Below the pieces are notes generated by a model, which was not told the origin of the DNA, ran no database searches, and saw only the letters and a list, made by a program, of their open reading frames with translations. Below, in pieces: positions 2,073 through 56,367 of a stretch of 56,367 nucleotides of DNA (the first letter of the stretch is position 1; the number at the start of each line of letters is the position of its first letter). This stretch comes from Alphaproteobacteria bacterium (GTDB taxonomy: Bacteria; Pseudomonadota; Alphaproteobacteria; Puniceispirillales; Puniceispirillaceae): the NCBI GenBank assembly GCA_011524995.1, contig WTJA01000070.1, positions 5,302-61,668 of the forward strand, written 5' to 3'. The translations under genes were made by a program, and so were the position numbers.

Positions 2073-2141
2073 CTATTTTCCAAAATTGTAAATGATGATA
2101 GGCTCATGACATCATCATTTTGTGAAGGGATGACACGCCTC

Positions 2142-2726
2142 ATGCGCCTTGTATCAACACTCTGTTTTGCGACCCTTTTAGGCATGTTATCAGCCTGCCA
2201 AACAACCCCTGTTGTCGAGCGGCTGGCCCGCTTTGATACGACGCAAGAGGCGCCTTTGGCTTTGAATGCCAGACGCCTTGAGATTACAGATAACTGGTTG
2301 ATGCCTGTCGTGGCACCCTATGTGGAACATGAGCTTAGCCCAACCCCGTCACAATATCTGATTGATTGGGCGTCAGACGTATTACAGCCGCTAGGCGGGT
2401 CTGGTGAGATCATCCTCAATATTTCAGAAGCCAGTGTACAGCTTGAAGAATTACCACCGGCAGAAGGGCTGTTAAATAGCCTGAAAGATAATCAGGAAAC
2501 ACGGATCCGCGTGACATTTGAAGCACAATTACTATGGATTCAGCCAGTGGGGAATTACCAAGGCACGGCGCAGCTTGCGGCGAAAACAACACAAACCTTG
2601 CCTGAATCAGCGACACCGAAAGATTACGATATCGCTATCCAGAATAATCTCAATCGGGCCATTGCGCTGATTGATGAGCAAGCACGTGCCAAAATCGCAG
2701 AGATGGATGGCATCATTTTGCCATAG
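2142..2726 (+). CDS. Putative lipoprotein of unknown function
   Basis: An in-frame start also exists at 2106. I prefer the ATG at 2142 because it gives a clean lipoprotein signal, MRLVSTLCFATLLGMLSAC, ending in the lipobox LSAC, with GAAGGGA upstream. The mature part of about 175 residues has no enzyme motif I recognise. It resembles uncharacterised alphaproteobacterial lipoproteins found downstream of hslO. The C-terminal 40 residues look helical, ending in a run with IALIDEQARAKIAEM. It probably sits at the inner or outer membrane facing the periplasm. It converges on trkH, with 21 bases between the stops. Confidence 0.7.
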   Translation: MRLVSTLCFATLLGMLSACQTTPVVERLARFDTTQEAPLALNARRLEITDNWLMPVVAPYVEHELSPTPSQYLIDWASDVLQPLGGSGEIILNISEASVQLEELPPAEGLLNSLKDNQETRIRVTFEAQLLWIQPVGNYQGTAQLAAKTTQTLPESATPKDYDIAIQNNLNRAIALIDEQARAKIAEMDGIILP

Positions 2727-4319: not shown

Positions 4320-4937
4320 CTATCTGATTTGGATCTGTTTGTAGAATCTATCACGCAAATCAGCATCATCTTGGAAGGCGCCAGTAAATTGCGTTGTGAC
4401 CATAGAGACACAAGGGGACTTGACGCCTCTGGTTGACATGCATTGATGGGCAGCATCGATCATCACAGCCACACCACGAGGCTGCAAAGCTGTTTGGATA
4501 CAATTTGCCACTTGCGCTGTCATGGTTTCTTGCGTCTGAAGGCGGTAGCCATAGCCATTTAACACACGCGCTAATTTGGAAATGCCAACCACACGGCGGT
4601 CAGGCAAATAGGCGATATGTGCCTTACCCGTGATAGGCACCATGTGATGTTCACAATGAGATTGCACGGTAATGTCACGCAGCATCACCATATCTTGATA
4701 GCCTTCGACCTCTTCAAACGTCTTAGCGAGGTGGTGATGGGGATCTTCTTGATAGCCTTTGAAAAATTCTTCGAAAGACCGCACAACACGCGCTGGTGTT
4801 TCACGCAAACCTTCTCTGTCAGGATTGTCACCTGCCCACCGCAATAGCACCTCAACGGCTGCCTCAGCTTCTTCACGAGTGGGGCGCGTTGTTAGCGTCG
4901 TTTCTTCAAGACTCTTTGGAATATCATAAGGTGTCAT
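4320..4937 (-). CDS. folE: GTP cyclohydrolase I
   Basis: Converts GTP to 7,8-dihydroneopterin triphosphate, the first step to tetrahydrofolate. It is 205 residues, a normal length. The zinc ligands are present: C95 and H98 in CEHHMVP, and C166 in HQCMSTRGV. The core segment [20 protein letters not shown] is well conserved. So this is the zinc type (FolE1), not the zinc-independent FolE2. No other folate gene is adjacent; the next genes are trkH downstream and a transporter ATPase upstream, both on the same strand. Confidence 0.96.
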
Positions 4938-5136: not shown

Positions 5137-5775
5137 CTAGCCTGATGCGGGCCATTCAATGACAGGACCTGTGGCAAAGGCTTTATCATCTTCATGATGC
5201 GAGATTAGCAAAGCGGGAATATCATGAGCTTTGACCTGATCGGCTACAAATTGGCCAAATTGTTGACGCAGCGCAGGGTCAAGCGCTGCAAAGCTCTCAT
5301 CCATCAAAAGGGCATCAGGGCGTGATAACATGGCGCGCATCATCGCCACTCTTGCCTTTTGCCCCCCTGAAAGTGAGGCTGGATCACGTTCGGAAAAATC
5401 TGATAGCCCTGCGATCATCAGGGCATGCTCGATTTGCTCTTGCCTGATGCGGCGCGATATCCCTTGGGGGAGGCCAAAACCGATATTATCGCCCACACTC
5501 ATATGCGGAAATAAAAGCGCCTCTTGGAAGAGCAGGCCAATCTGCCTGTTTTCAACAGCGACGCCAGTGAGTGCGCGCCCCGCTAGCGAGATGTCGCCTG
5601 TCACCTTAAGGTGTGGGGATTGGGTGCCGGCAATGACGCTCAGAAGGGTTGATTTGCCGCATCCTGATGGGCCTTGCAAGACCGCAATCTCTCCCTTTTG
5701 GATGGTAAGAGAAAATGAACTTAGCAAGGGCGGCTGGTCGTCCCAGCCCATAGTGATGTCGTGAAGCGATAGCAT
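5137..5775 (-). CDS. ynjD: ABC transporter ATPase, YnjD/ThiQ-like
   Basis: A 212-residue nucleotide-binding subunit with every catalytic element: Walker A GPSGCGKST at 35-43, Q-loop Q84, signature LSGGQ at 135-139, Walker B ALLMDE at 155-160 and switch histidine H193 in ISHHEDD. It is short, without a C-terminal regulatory domain, as in ThiQ and YnjD. The binding protein and fused permease that complete a YnjBCD importer lie at 6898-9861 on the other strand; this ATPase and the lipoprotein at 5904-6710 share the minus strand. Assignment to that transporter is inferred from location and family resemblance. The substrate is unknown. Confidence 0.82.
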   Translation of the reverse strand: MLSLHDITMGWDDQPPLLSSFSLTIQKGEIAVLQGPSGCGKSTLLSVIAGTQSPHLKVTGDISLAGRALTGVAVENRQIGLLFQEALLFPHMSVGDNIGFGLPQGISRRIRQEQIEHALMIAGLSDFSERDPASLSGGQKARVAMMRAMLSRPDALLMDESFAALDPALRQQFGQFVADQVKAHDIPALLISHHEDDKAFATGPVIEWPASG

Positions 5776-5903
5776 AGCAATCCTATAAATTTATCACGCC
5801 AGAGGGGTGTCACCCTTTGTCCCAGCGATGCTATCGCCTTCTGTTAGAAAGACAATGACAAAATGAGGAGGGAGCCTGAATGAGGAGGGCGCTATCTGCC
5901 TTG

Positions 5904-6710
5904 TTAGGGGGGTTGTTTTTGGCCAATGGCAGCCCCATGAAAGAGGCCTTCTTCAGGCATGAGGCGGAAAAGTAACCCTGATTGAATGGCATCTGGACCA
6001 AAGAAATCACCCAATGCCTCGGCGCTATCATGGGAAAGGGGGGCGCCTTGATAGGAAAACTGACGCACCTCTGAGAGGATTAATCCGCGGCCACTATCTG
6101 GGGACTGCAAGGCAAGCGAGAGGGTAATTTCATCTGTGTGAAGGTGGAAAGATGCGCGCCCCGCCCCTTCATAAGACAGCGTGCCAGCTTTTTGGCCAGA
6201 GGTGGCATCACAGAACTGACAATGCCAAATCACATGCATGTCATAGTGAGCGATGGTGGGGGGTGGTGGGCTCGCCCGTCCCCATAGTAAAAAATGCCCT
6301 GGATCGCGCTGGTAAAAACTATCTTCGGCATCTGTTAATCCGATGCGATGAGCCAAATGGGCCAAGCCAGCATAGCGTGCGGTACCAGATGGCCAGAACA
6401 GGGTTGCCTCTGACAAGGGTGGTTGTTTGGAAAGGAAGCCATACAGGTCGTCCTCTTGGTCAAGCCAGGTAATGTCACCTGTATTGACATCTATGACATA
6501 GCTATGCGGCTCACCTTCCTCAAAGCTATCTAACTGACCAAAGATATAATCAAGCGGCGCCTCTGTGACCGTTGCGACGGCCGCTGGTGCCAGCGTGGGA
6601 GACGACCCACCGCTACCAGCACCAGAACAGGCTGATATCACGCTTGCCGCGAGTAATATCATCCCCCGCCCTAGCGATAAGGTCAGAAGAGGATAGCAGG
6701 GCACTTTCAT
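5904..6710 (-). CDS. Transferrin-binding-protein-like lipoprotein (putative)
   Basis: About 268 residues; starts at 6725, 6710 and 6662 are all possible. A hydrophobic segment ends in ILLAASVISAC, a lipobox, followed by a Gly/Ser-rich linker. The rest resembles the small beta-barrel lipoproteins related to TbpB: a mid-protein SGTARYAG strand, and near the end DFFGPDAIQSG followed by GLFHGAAIGQK, the turn-strand pattern (FxGPxAxExG ... GxxxG) of that fold. A HCQFC pair lies near residue 170, which could bind metal or form a disulfide. It would sit on a membrane facing the periplasm or the surface. It lies between the ATPase and the binding protein of the ABC importer, so a role in ligand capture is plausible but unproven. 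Confidence 0.55.
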   Translation of the reverse strand: MKVPCYPLLTLSLGRGMILLAASVISACSGAGSGGSSPTLAPAAVATVTEAPLDYIFGQLDSFEEGEPHSYVIDVNTGDITWLDQEDDLYGFLSKQPPLSEATLFWPSGTARYAGLAHLAHRIGLTDAEDSFYQRDPGHFLLWGRASPPPPTIAHYDMHVIWHCQFCDATSGQKAGTLSYEGAGRASFHLHTDEITLSLALQSPDSGRGLILSEVRQFSYQGAPLSHDSAEALGDFFGPDAIQSGLLFRLMPEEGLFHGAAIGQKQPP

Positions 6711-6727
6711 AAAACAAGGAAACATAT

Positions 6728-6792
6728 CAGGTCATCTTGCACTATCATGAAAGAGAGAGTGGCCTGTCTCTGATAGTGGGTCTAGTGACCTG
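6728..6792. repeat. Nested inverted repeats in the divergent lipoprotein/ynjB gap
   Basis: Two perfect inverted repeats are nested. The outer arms are CAGGTCA (6728-6734) and TGACCTG (6786-6792). The inner arms are CACTATCA (6740-6747) and TGATAGTG (6771-6778). Small GAGA/TCTC runs continue the inner stem. Together they can fold into one hairpin of about 65 bases. It lies upstream of both the minus-strand lipoprotein gene and the plus-strand ynjB gene, so it could be an operator pair or a structured 5' leader. There is no T-run directly after it, so a simple terminator is unlikely. Confidence 0.6.
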
Positions 6793-6897
6793 TCAGCATT
6801 ACCCTTTTTATTTTTGCTTGTTCAAAAGTGTGAATCAAGGCTAGGTAGAAAGCAGTTTCAGGCCGACCGCACTGCATGCGAAGAAAGGATTTTTGTC

Positions 6898-8124
6898 ATG
6901 TCTCGCAAACATCTTACCGCTTTCAAACATCTTGTCACAGCTGTGGCAATGATGGGGTTTGCGCTATCCTCAGCCGCCGCCATGACAGATATTGCTGCGT
7001 TGGAAGAAGAGGCCAAAGGCCAAACGGTTTATTTTAACGCATGGGGCGGTGATGAAAAAATCAATGCCTATATCAGCTGGGCAGGCCAGCAGATGAAAGA
7101 GCGTTATGACGTGAGCGTGGATCATGTCAAATTAACAGATACCGCAGCGGCGGTCTCTCGTATCTTAGCAGAAAAAACAGCCGGCCGTGCCGATGACGGG
7201 TCGGTCGATTTGCTGTGGGTGAATGGTGAGAATTTTGCCGCCATGAAACGGGCAGGTCTTTTGCAAGATCATGATTGGGTAACAAGCCTGCCAAATTGGG
7301 CTTTGACAGACGCCACAGAATTACCTGCGATCGCCCTTGATTTTGCGGTGCCAACAGACGGACGGGAATCACCATGGGGCCGCGCGCAGCTCGTCTTTTT
7401 CTATGATAGCGCCTATGTCCAAACCCCGCCGCACGATGCCGCCTCGCTAAAAGACTATATCCTCTCCCATCCTGGGCGATTTACCTATCCGCAGCCGCCT
7501 GATTTCATGGGCCTCTCATTCCTCAAACAAATTCTAACAGAAGTGACCGCGATGCCAGAGGCGCTTTATCAGCCTGTTGAGGAAGCTGATTTTGAGGCGG
7601 TTACCGCACCACTTTGGGCCTATTTGGATGAGGTGACACCTGCGCTATGGCGTCGGGGGACAGCCTATCCGCAAAATTATCCAGCCCAACGTCAATTAGT
7701 GGCAGATGGTGAGGTTGATATTTATATTGCCTTTAATCCCGCAGATGCCTCCTCTGCTATTGCACAAGGTGACCTGCCTGATACGGTGCGCTCTTACATT
7801 CATCGTTCTGGCACAATTGCCAATGTGCATTTTCTGGCCATTCCGTTTAACAGCGGCTCATCAGCTGGGGCAAAATTACTAGCCAATCTCTTGCTTTCGC
7901 CAGAAGCGCAGCTTCGCAAAGCTGATCCTGCTATTTGGGGTGACCCCTCTGTGCTATCACAAGCCCGCCTAACAGCTGATATGCAGGCCCAATTTGCGGG
8001 TTTGCCAAAAGGTGTAGCGACATTGGGGCCAGCTGATTTGGCTAAAACATTACCAGAGCCGCATCCAAGTTGGGTCCCACGTTTAGAACAAGCCTGGCTT
8101 GCGCGTTACGGCGCCGCGCAATAA
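6898..8124 (+). CDS. ynjB: ABC transporter substrate-binding protein, YnjB family
   Basis: Periplasmic solute-binding protein of 408 residues. I chose the ATG at 6898, which has GAAAGGA about 10 bases upstream and gives a signal peptide (MSRKHLTAFKH, a hydrophobic stretch, then SAAA cleavage near residue 27). The mature protein opens with the TVYFNAWGGDEKINAYISWA block of the YnjB family, distant relatives of thiamine and iron(III) binding proteins, followed by DLLWVNGENFAAMK. It is joined to the permease by a 3-base gap. The ligand cannot be read from the sequence. Confidence 0.86.
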   Translation: MSRKHLTAFKHLVTAVAMMGFALSSAAAMTDIAALEEEAKGQTVYFNAWGGDEKINAYISWAGQQMKERYDVSVDHVKLTDTAAAVSRILAEKTAGRADDGSVDLLWVNGENFAAMKRAGLLQDHDWVTSLPNWALTDATELPAIALDFAVPTDGRESPWGRAQLVFFYDSAYVQTPPHDAASLKDYILSHPGRFTYPQPPDFMGLSFLKQILTEVTAMPEALYQPVEEADFEAVTAPLWAYLDEVTPALWRRGTAYPQNYPAQRQLVADGEVDIYIAFNPADASSAIAQGDLPDTVRSYIHRSGTIANVHFLAIPFNSGSSAGAKLLANLLLSPEAQLRKADPAIWGDPSVLSQARLTADMQAQFAGLPKGVATLGPADLAKTLPEPHPSWVPRLEQAWLARYGAAQ

Positions 8125-8127
8125 TGA

Positions 8128-9861
8128 ATGATGCCTCCCTTTTTGAGTAAAAGGAAAAGGGGGGCAATTCGCGCAAGCGCTATGATACGTTTTGGGTTTG
8201 TCACTTTTGGCTTATTGCTATTTGCCTTGCCTCTATTAGGGGGGATGGTAGGCGTTTTACTGCCGGCGTTTGGCTATTTTCCGCCGCTAGGATATGAGGG
8301 GATATCACTTCTACCAGCCGCGCTATTTTGGGCGCATCCTCATGCGCTCACAGCCTTATTTCAGTCTTTATATATCGGGCTGACAGCAACGGCTTTGTCA
8401 GTTGTCTTTGTCTTTTTATGTTTGGCGCTTGAGCAAGAACATCGCGCGGTTCACCATATGATGAAGCTTGTGCGTGTGATGCTTGGCCCGCTCATTGCGT
8501 TGCCACATTCCACCATTGCGATTGCTTTATTATTTCTGTTGGCGCCGTCTGGCTGGCTCGCGCGGCTTATCGCACCCGAAATAACGGGCTGGATGCGGCC
8601 GCCTGCTTTTGGATTTGTGCCTGACCAATCAGGGGGGGTGTTAATCCTCGGCTTGATGGCAAAAGAGATACCCTTTCTGTTATTTGTGGCATTAGCACAA
8701 AGCCAGTCTCTGCCGGTAAAGCGCCTTCTGACTTTGGGCCGCCTTCATGGCTATCATGGGGTAGCAAGCTGGCTATATCTCATTTGGCCGCAGCTCTATC
8801 CCCTCCTGCGATTGCCTCTTTTTGCCGTTCTGGCCTATGCGCTATCTGTGATTGATATGACCTTGATTTTAGGGCCCACCTTACCCCCGCCGCTTGCAGG
8901 CCTCATCTTACAAGGCTTTACCGATCCTGACCTGGCGGCGCGCCTCCCGGCCTCTTTTGCTGCCTTTTTGCAGCTCATCCTCATTATCGCAGGGATGATG
9001 ATATGGGTGGGCGTGGCGAAGCTGTGCCGCCTCTGTTCTATCCTCTTGCGCCATCATCAATGGCGAATGCGATCTATCTCACTGGTCACGCTGCCGCCTC
9101 TTATGATTTTGGGTCTCAGCTTTGTTTTATTGGCGTTGGGGCTGATTGCTATTGGGTTATGGGCCTTTGCAAAATCATGGCCATTTTCTGCCAACTTGCC
9201 GCAAAGCTATGGGCTTCATCTGTGGCGTGATAGTGCCGAATGGGGGCTATTATTTGCACAAAGCTTTGTGATTGCTGTGGCGGCTAGCCTCTCTTCGATT
9301 GGCCTATCTATGCTCTGGTTAGAGGGGCGACACTGGCACAGGCGCTCTTTGTCAGTGATGACCTTGTTGCTGTTTATTCCGTTATTGGTGCCGCAAATCT
9401 CGCTCTTATTCGGCTTACAAGTGGCATTGAGCTATCTATATTTGGATGGCAAATTACTCACAGTGATCTGGCTCCATACGCTTTATTGTCTGCCTTATAG
9501 CTGGTTGGTGTTGGCGCCTGCTTTGGTGCATTTTGATAGACGCTATATTACGCTTGCGCGCAGCTTAGGGTCTGGGCCATGGCGTTGTTTTTGGCGGGTG
9601 AAGTTACCGATGATTGCGCCGTCATTGGCGTCTGCCTTTTCAATTGGCATTGCGGTGTCAGTCGCGCTTTATTTGCCAACGCTTTTTGCAGGGGCAGGAC
9701 GCATTGATACGGTGACAACTGAGGCAGTAACGGCGGCAGCAAATGGCGCAAGAGGCGGTGCCGCGCGGGCAGCCCTCATGCAAATGGCGCTTCCTCTATT
9801 GGGTTTTCTGGCGGTCTCTTTCTTTCTACGGTGGCAGCAAGCGCCTAAAAAACAGGCATAA
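8128..9861 (+). CDS. ynjC: ABC transporter permease, YnjC family (fused double permease)
   Basis: A 577-residue inner-membrane protein with two permease halves in one chain, as in YnjC, FbpB and ThiP. The N-terminal half spans about residues 20-310; a second set of hydrophobic segments runs to the end. The EAA-type coupling loop of the second half is visible as ARSLGSGPWRCFWRVKLPM near residue 480. It starts 3 bases after the ynjB stop, so the two are surely cotranscribed. The ATPase expected to drive it is encoded on the opposite strand at 5137-5775. It is longer than E. coli YnjC. Confidence 0.87.
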   Translation: MMPPFLSKRKRGAIRASAMIRFGFVTFGLLLFALPLLGGMVGVLLPAFGYFPPLGYEGISLLPAALFWAHPHALTALFQSLYIGLTATALSVVFVFLCLALEQEHRAVHHMMKLVRVMLGPLIALPHSTIAIALLFLLAPSGWLARLIAPEITGWMRPPAFGFVPDQSGGVLILGLMAKEIPFLLFVALAQSQSLPVKRLLTLGRLHGYHGVASWLYLIWPQLYPLLRLPLFAVLAYALSVIDMTLILGPTLPPPLAGLILQGFTDPDLAARLPASFAAFLQLILIIAGMMIWVGVAKLCRLCSILLRHHQWRMRSISLVTLPPLMILGLSFVLLALGLIAIGLWAFAKSWPFSANLPQSYGLHLWRDSAEWGLLFAQSFVIAVAASLSSIGLSMLWLEGRHWHRRSLSVMTLLLFIPLLVPQISLLFGLQVALSYLYLDGKLLTVIWLHTLYCLPYSWLVLAPALVHFDRRYITLARSLGSGPWRCFWRVKLPMIAPSLASAFSIGIAVSVALYLPTLFAGAGRIDTVTTEAVTAAANGARGGAARAALMQMALPLLGFLAVSFFLRWQQAPKKQA

Positions 9862-10108: not shown

Positions 10109-10627
10109 ATGGCACAGCACTCGCTTTCAGCTAAGAAAATCGCAATCATGGTATCAGCTGGCTTTGATGAAGCCCAATTCATCGACATCCAGAAATCAAT
10201 GATGGCAAATAATGGATGGCTAAAAGTGGTGGCAAATAAGCCTGGTCTCGTGAATGGCGCACGTGATGGCATGCTAGGCATGGCTTATCCTGTTGATGCA
10301 ACCATCGCGGAAACGCTTGCGATCGATTATGATGGTTTGGTCATCCCTGGCGGCGAAAAGCATATCGCCACCTTGTCAGAAGAGCCGCATGCCTTGCGCA
10401 TCTTGCGCGCTTTCCTGCGTGAATCAATGCCAGTTCTTTTGATTGAAGAAGCGGCCACAATGCTCGATCATATCGAATCAGATGTGACATCGTCTGATTT
10501 TGATGCGTCGCAAGCTATTGATTGTCAGGCATCAATTGCGCGCGCGCAAAAAGATGCTTCAATGACAACATCTCTTGCAGCCTTGGCAGAAATCATGCAT
10601 AGCCAAGAAGAAGAGCAAGCCGCTTAA
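10109..10627 (+). CDS. DJ-1/PfpI-like protein lacking the nucleophilic cysteine (catalase C-domain-like)
   Basis: 172 residues; AGGAG precedes the ATG by 9 bases. The start KKIAIMVSAGFDEAQFIDIQ and the mid-segment YDGLVIPGGEKH give the flavodoxin-like fold of the DJ-1/PfpI superfamily. At the elbow, where active members have IC(H/A)G, this protein reads LLIEEAATML, with E113 where the cysteine should be. Loss of the cysteine is also seen in the C-terminal domain of large catalases such as KatE, which this protein resembles as a stand-alone unit. A protease, chaperone or glyoxalase activity is therefore doubtful. No catalase gene is in the window. It is followed by a DUF1289 gene. Confidence 0.7.
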   Translation: MAQHSLSAKKIAIMVSAGFDEAQFIDIQKSMMANNGWLKVVANKPGLVNGARDGMLGMAYPVDATIAETLAIDYDGLVIPGGEKHIATLSEEPHALRILRAFLRESMPVLLIEEAATMLDHIESDVTSSDFDASQAIDCQASIARAQKDASMTTSLAALAEIMHSQEEEQAA

Positions 10628-56090: not shown

Positions 56091-56367
56091 TAACCTAAGA
56101 GTTTGATCCTGGCTCAGAACGAACGCTGGCGGCATGCTTAACACATGCAAGTCGAACGCTATTTTATAGAGTGGCGCACGGGTGAGTAACACGTGGGAAT
56201 CTGCCCTTCTCTGCGGGACAACAGTTGGAAACGACTGCTAATACCGCATACGCCCTCTGGGGGAAAGGTCCGCCGGAGAAGGAGGAGCCCGCGTCTGATT
56301 AGCTTGTTGGTGGGGTAATGGCCTACCAAGGCGACGATCAGTAGCTGGTCTGAGAGGATGATCAGCC
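56091..56367 (+). rRNA. rrs: 16S ribosomal RNA, 5' part (cut by the window edge)
   Basis: AGAGTTTGATCCTGGCTCAG lies at 56098-56117, followed by GAACGCTGGCGGCATGC and the V1/V2 region. GGCGCACGGGTGAGTAACAC and the GGCGACGATCAGTAGCTGG segment (near E. coli 275-300) are also clear. The mature 5' end is placed at about 56091 from E. coli numbering. The short V1 loop and the ACTGCTAATACCGCATACGCC stretch suit an alphaproteobacterium. The rest of the operon is beyond the window. Confidence 0.97.

Follow-up and report, generated by a model that had tools for sequence, protein, structure and literature searches.

The window, that is, the whole stretch of 56,367 nucleotides that was analysed, belongs to an alphaproteobacterial genome assembly of 1.96 Mb (98% complete); among named genomes, those of the SAR116 cluster and of Candidatus Puniceispirillum are its closest relatives. 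At 2.7-12 kb it carries, in this order, trkH, folE, ynjD and a lipoprotein gene, here called lipoX, on the minus strand, and ynjB, ynjC and the gene for a DJ-1 protein on the plus strand; downstream of DJ-1 follow a homocysteine methyltransferase-like gene and then aspS (plus strand). The features are:

4320..4937, minus strand: folE (GTP cyclohydrolase I), a flanking gene
5137..5775, minus strand: ynjD-type ABC ATPase (PF00005, E 2.7e-30; named YnjD by synteny)
5904..6710, minus strand, open reading frame to 6725: lipoX, a predicted TbpB-fold lipoprotein (profile, AlphaFold2, Foldseek)
6711..6897, no strand: intergenic gap from which lipoX and ynjB diverge, about 187 bp
6898..8124, plus strand: ynjB, periplasmic solute-binding protein (NF008633, 534.7 bits)
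8128..9861, plus strand: ynjC, fused ABC permease of 577 amino acids (PF00528, E 6e-7)
10109..10627, plus strand: DJ-1/PfpI protein (PF01965, E 1.8e-11), a flanking gene

The four genes from ynjD to ynjC lie at the positions and on the strands given in the original prediction, with the ATPase and the lipoprotein divergent from the binding protein and the fused permease. Among the motifs to which it drew attention, FFGPDAIQSG and GLFHGAA are indeed found within the lipoprotein, while HCQFC, which had been placed between the transporter genes, is inside the lipoprotein as well and is no separate inter-gene element. The genes lipoX and ynjD run in the same direction at a spacing of 128 bp in the window and of about 90-110 bp in genome G045, so their co-regulation is possible. 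The divergent gap gave no Rfam match that would point to a riboswitch, and no shared regulatory motif was found in the divergent gaps of 14 genomes. Elsewhere in the window, a small conserved lipoprotein without a Pfam match is encoded at 2106-2726 (plus strand) between hslO and trkH, the site that it also occupies in almost every family genome read (identity 35-66%), and the 5' end of a 16S rRNA gene lies at 56091-56367 (plus strand), truncated by the window end.

The YnjBCD importer and its substrate

YnjBCD (COG4134-4136) is described as uncharacterised (PMC9207381), and the E. coli genes are arranged in the order ynjA-ynjB-ynjC-ynjD (PMC2731931). In the window, YnjB scores far above the curated cut-off of the NCBIfam model NF008633, which is 203 bits. 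YnjC has its PF00528 domain in the C-terminal half and gives partial matches to fused ThiP and to PhnU2, and ynjC always adjoins ynjB in the loci compared. The ATPase has a Walker A motif (GPSGCGKS), a signature motif (LSGGQ) and an ABC_tran match, its identity as YnjD coming from linkage alone. The identification of a YnjBCD importer is borne out by the NF008633 match and the fused permease. Unlike the arrangement in E. coli, the ATPase gene here is divergent from ynjBC and lipoX lies between them. In the ten genomes that have lipoX at one place and ynjBC at another, ynjD mostly diverges from ynjB across an empty gap wherever the flank is readable, as it generally does in this family. In the genome G105 of family f3 (f1, g1 and the like are working labels for families and genera, not taxon names), the search found no ATPase with more than 38% identity, and YnjBC may work with a different ATPase there.

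In the importer, YnjB would capture a periplasmic solute, which the pump formed by YnjC and YnjD would then import. The AlphaFold2 model of YnjB (pLDDT 91.4) matches 4r6y in Foldseek with E 9.8e-17, and its fold neighbours with similar scores are a putative 2-aminoethylphosphonate-binding protein and binding proteins for polyamines, metal-citrate, ferric ions, thiamine and sugar phosphates. PotD, AfuA, FbpA and MctA share the fold (Foldseek E 1e-17 to 1e-13) at an identity of 14-18%, and the YnjB profile gives weak matches to 4r6y and PotD. Reading the substrate from the fold was rejected because binders of polyamines, metal-citrate, iron, thiamine and sugar phosphates all match alike, and reading it from the neighbours of ynjBCD in other genera was rejected because these vary by lineage and form no consistent pathway. 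E. coli YnjB is tabulated among polyamine-transporter homologues (PMC9397018).

The original prediction had proposed a metal or metal complex as one possible substrate. Ferric binders of the FbpA/FutA type carry tandem tyrosines as iron ligands. Such a tandem (YY) is absent from 27 of 29 YnjB sequences, that of the window included, and lipoX has a single CxxC, so a metal substrate is not supported.

Sequence and predicted fold of lipoX

The start codon of lipoX at 6710 (ATG) is equally as good as the longer start at 6725. In the numbering of the longer open reading frame, the lipobox VISAC ends in Cys33 and the CxxC is at 169/172. A pattern search finds a lipobox-like motif in all 17 lipoX sequences, in which the lipobox cysteine and one CxxC are invariant and no further cysteine follows the lipobox. 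Columns of the form G..FG..(6)G, together with CxxC, are invariant in 15-17 homologues, and dN/dS in closely related pairs is 0.13-0.31; these motifs are therefore conserved beyond chance, and the gene is under purifying selection.

Searches of Pfam and NCBIfam and with PF01298 gave no match to the window's lipoX, and the Pfam model TbpB_B_D likewise did not match it and reached only one of 15 homologues, at E 0.005. A profile of eight lipoX homologues, however, matches PDB chains of TbpB with E 2.9e-5, and the match runs through GGxFGPxxxExG, a motif with which each of the two barrels of TbpB ends. The AlphaFold2 model (mean pLDDT 78.6, core above 90) has eight C-terminal strands at residues 159-270, and its best Foldseek match is TbpB (E 1.6e-6, probability 1.00), followed by matches to LbpB, the C-terminal domain of NHBA (6cuj, TMt 0.65), hemophilins and fHbp. 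Given the confident AlphaFold2 core, the Foldseek matches and the profile, the earlier suggestion of a transferrin-binding-like barrel was right.

LipoX shares with TbpB, LbpB, NHBA, fHbp and hemophilin the eight-strand C-terminal barrel, the GGxFGPxxxExG motif, the lipobox and a flexible G/S-rich linker. It differs from them in having a single barrel and an invariant CxxC hairpin, in lying below Pfam detection, in not standing beside a TonB receptor and in being confined, among the genomes searched, to a single order; TbpB proper, in contrast, has two lobes, binds transferrin and is paired with TbpA. LipoX represents a real, slightly novel family of TbpB-fold lipoproteins missed by Pfam and NCBIfam. 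The predicted protein would have a small N-terminal alpha/beta region atop the eight-strand barrel, and its CxxC lies in the model within the hairpin that joins barrel strands 1 and 2. Since these two are the only cysteines of the mature body apart from the one to be lipidated, the hairpin is most simply, and most likely, read as a disulfide staple.

Export and maintenance of lipoX

LipoX would be exported by Sec, lipidated at the lipobox cysteine and transferred to the outer membrane. Cargo of the type 11 secretion system (T11SS) consists of a C-terminal eight-strand barrel and a variable N-terminal domain (PMC12282271, PMC8406197), and the characterised barrels of the TbpB kind are Slam/T11SS cargo (PMC5449769, PMC8406197, PMC12282271). 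The fold of lipoX matches such cargo, and the protein diverges fast, with a within-genus identity of 32-36% as against 91% for AspS, both of which would suit a surface-displayed Slam cargo such as a hemophore or a metal co-receptor. We nevertheless assign this explanation a very low probability, because Slam (PF04575) was found in none of 61 family genomes, the window genome included, and not in the single-contig genome G124, while the positive control worked, giving 19 matches above the cut-off in 190 class genomes. In addition, lipoX has a single barrel and no adjacent TonB receptor. In family f4, PF04575 was detected in one of 11 genomes (G125), where Slam-like genes lie at C108:16696-17259 and C92:2896-4018, one contig having two in tandem. 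A detectable Slam is thus absent from 16 of the 17 lipoX carriers, a count to be read with the reservation that the Pfam model could overlook remote exporters. Since no Slam exporter was found, lipoX more likely faces the periplasm, or takes another, non-Slam route to the surface, and would bind a partner in the envelope or at the surface. In its predicted structure lipoX resembles a TbpB barrel; as Slam cargo it is at most a candidate.

Within the order SAR116/Puniceispirillales, lipoX is present in 17 of 136 genomes, and in 8 of the 61 genomes of the family. A profile search of 385 sampled class genomes gave no true homologue outside the order, and a scan of genome contigs with the lipoX query gave no match; the candidate G481 was rejected because its match spans the signal-peptide region only. 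This patchy distribution, the losses in G046, G001, G003 and G008, and a broken remnant in G033 (C109:10306-10422, interrupted by stops, between folE and DJ-1) might suggest a decaying gene without function. Such decay is barely credible in view of the dN/dS values and of the invariant CxxC and G/F positions in the carriers.

LipoX and YnjBCD across genomes

We consider it probable that the locus holds two functionally separate units on one old gene order, and that lipoX is co-located with YnjBCD while being no part of the importer. The genes, the predicted fold, the distribution, the gene order and the selection form the established part of this explanation.

YnjB is encoded in 107 of the 136 order genomes. 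It occurs in 15 of 17 lipoX carriers and in 92 of 119 non-carriers (p = 0.53), and a placement test gave p = 1.0; both values count related genomes and are descriptive only. The co-occurrence of the lipoprotein with YnjB homologues, on which the original prediction had proposed a survey, is therefore not apparent. YnjB is nevertheless encoded by every carrier whose locus is complete and uninterrupted. LipoX adjoins ynjB in five carriers, namely G000 and G045 (f1, g1) and G124, G125 and G126 (f4). It lies between folE and DJ-1 with no ynj gene in G004, G005 and G006 (g2), G032 (g7) and G009 (g3), and is directly divergent from DJ-1 in genus g20 of f4 (G129-G134). Ten of these genomes, from two families, have ynjBC elsewhere, out of 15 carriers with resolved loci (in G044 the locus ends at a contig edge). 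DJ-1 is its constant neighbour. Conversely, about 90 genomes have YnjB and no lipoX, most YnjBCD loci, and those of most genera, lack it, and among 80 YnjB loci of GTDB genomes only three have it, all in SAR116/Puniceispirillales. The DJ-1 locus itself has ynjBC without lipoX in G046, which belongs to the window's genus and has ynjBCD at the same place, in G059, and in the f3 genomes G105, G110, G069 and G075.

These data bear on the ligand-capture partnership that had been suggested, in which lipoX would work at the outer membrane, binding either the substrate or a carrier of it for delivery to YnjB and then to YnjCD, as one capture-and-import system. TbpB and hemophilins use the same fold for ligand capture, the interleaved order is common to G000 and G045 and recurs, with ynjD displaced, in G124 and G126 of the other family, and the divergent lipoX-ynjB pair is also found in G125, so that two families have this pair, which seems to be ancestral. 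We regard such a system as unlikely all the same, given the separation in ten carriers, the many YnjB genomes free of lipoX, the missing co-occurrence signal, and G046 and G059, which keep ynjBC at the locus without it; moreover, no TonB receptor or Slam gene is present at the locus. At least two lineages (g2/g3/g7 of f1 and g20 of f4) have retained lipoX under selection with ynjBCD elsewhere, dN/dS being 0.13-0.21 where it is not adjacent to ynjB, which argues against an obligate partnership. A related and distinctly doubtful proposal is that in SAR116 bacteria a Slam-independent lipoX, placed in the outer membrane or the periplasm, serves YnjBCD as a loading partner, with a CxxC hairpin sensitive to redox or metal; if true, this would be a capture device new for this importer.

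In the explanation by two separate units, the position of lipoX within the YnjBCD genes would be inherited gene order. The ynjD-folE and lipoX/ynjBC-DJ1 junctions recur in f4, so the order trkH-folE-ynjD-lipoX/ynjBC-DJ1 looks ancestral and later broken; insertion of ynjBCD around lipoX in the window genus was dropped for the presence of both junctions in f4. In G124 a ynjD-like ATPase gene lies beside folE and trkH, 76 kb from lipoX/ynjBC-DJ1. That of G126 also adjoins folE and is separated from lipoX by 7 kb of one contig. The displacement of this ATPase from an ynjBC that adjoins DJ-1 is seen in G124 (C1), G126 (C92) and G059, the two parts being on different contigs in G059. Furthermore, the window falls with g5/g6/g9/g10 in the YnjB tree (94/93), but with g2/g7/g11 in the tree of AspS (91/86); because of this conflict, which has moderate support, horizontal replacement of ynjBCD in the window genus is possible. 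Lipidation, location, the disulfide and the lack of a joint function are the parts of this explanation that we infer.

These results also show that YnjBCD does not need lipoX, so that an attractive though weak hint at what the importer takes up falls away. LipoX is the more novel of the two units, a TbpB-fold family that is restricted to one order and has no detectable Slam in nearly all of its carriers. The TbpB-barrel lipoproteins thereby gain a fast-evolving family, missed by Pfam and NCBIfam, from free-living marine bacteria mostly without a Slam exporter, which raises the question of where TbpB barrels are located, and which partners they bind, outside hosts.
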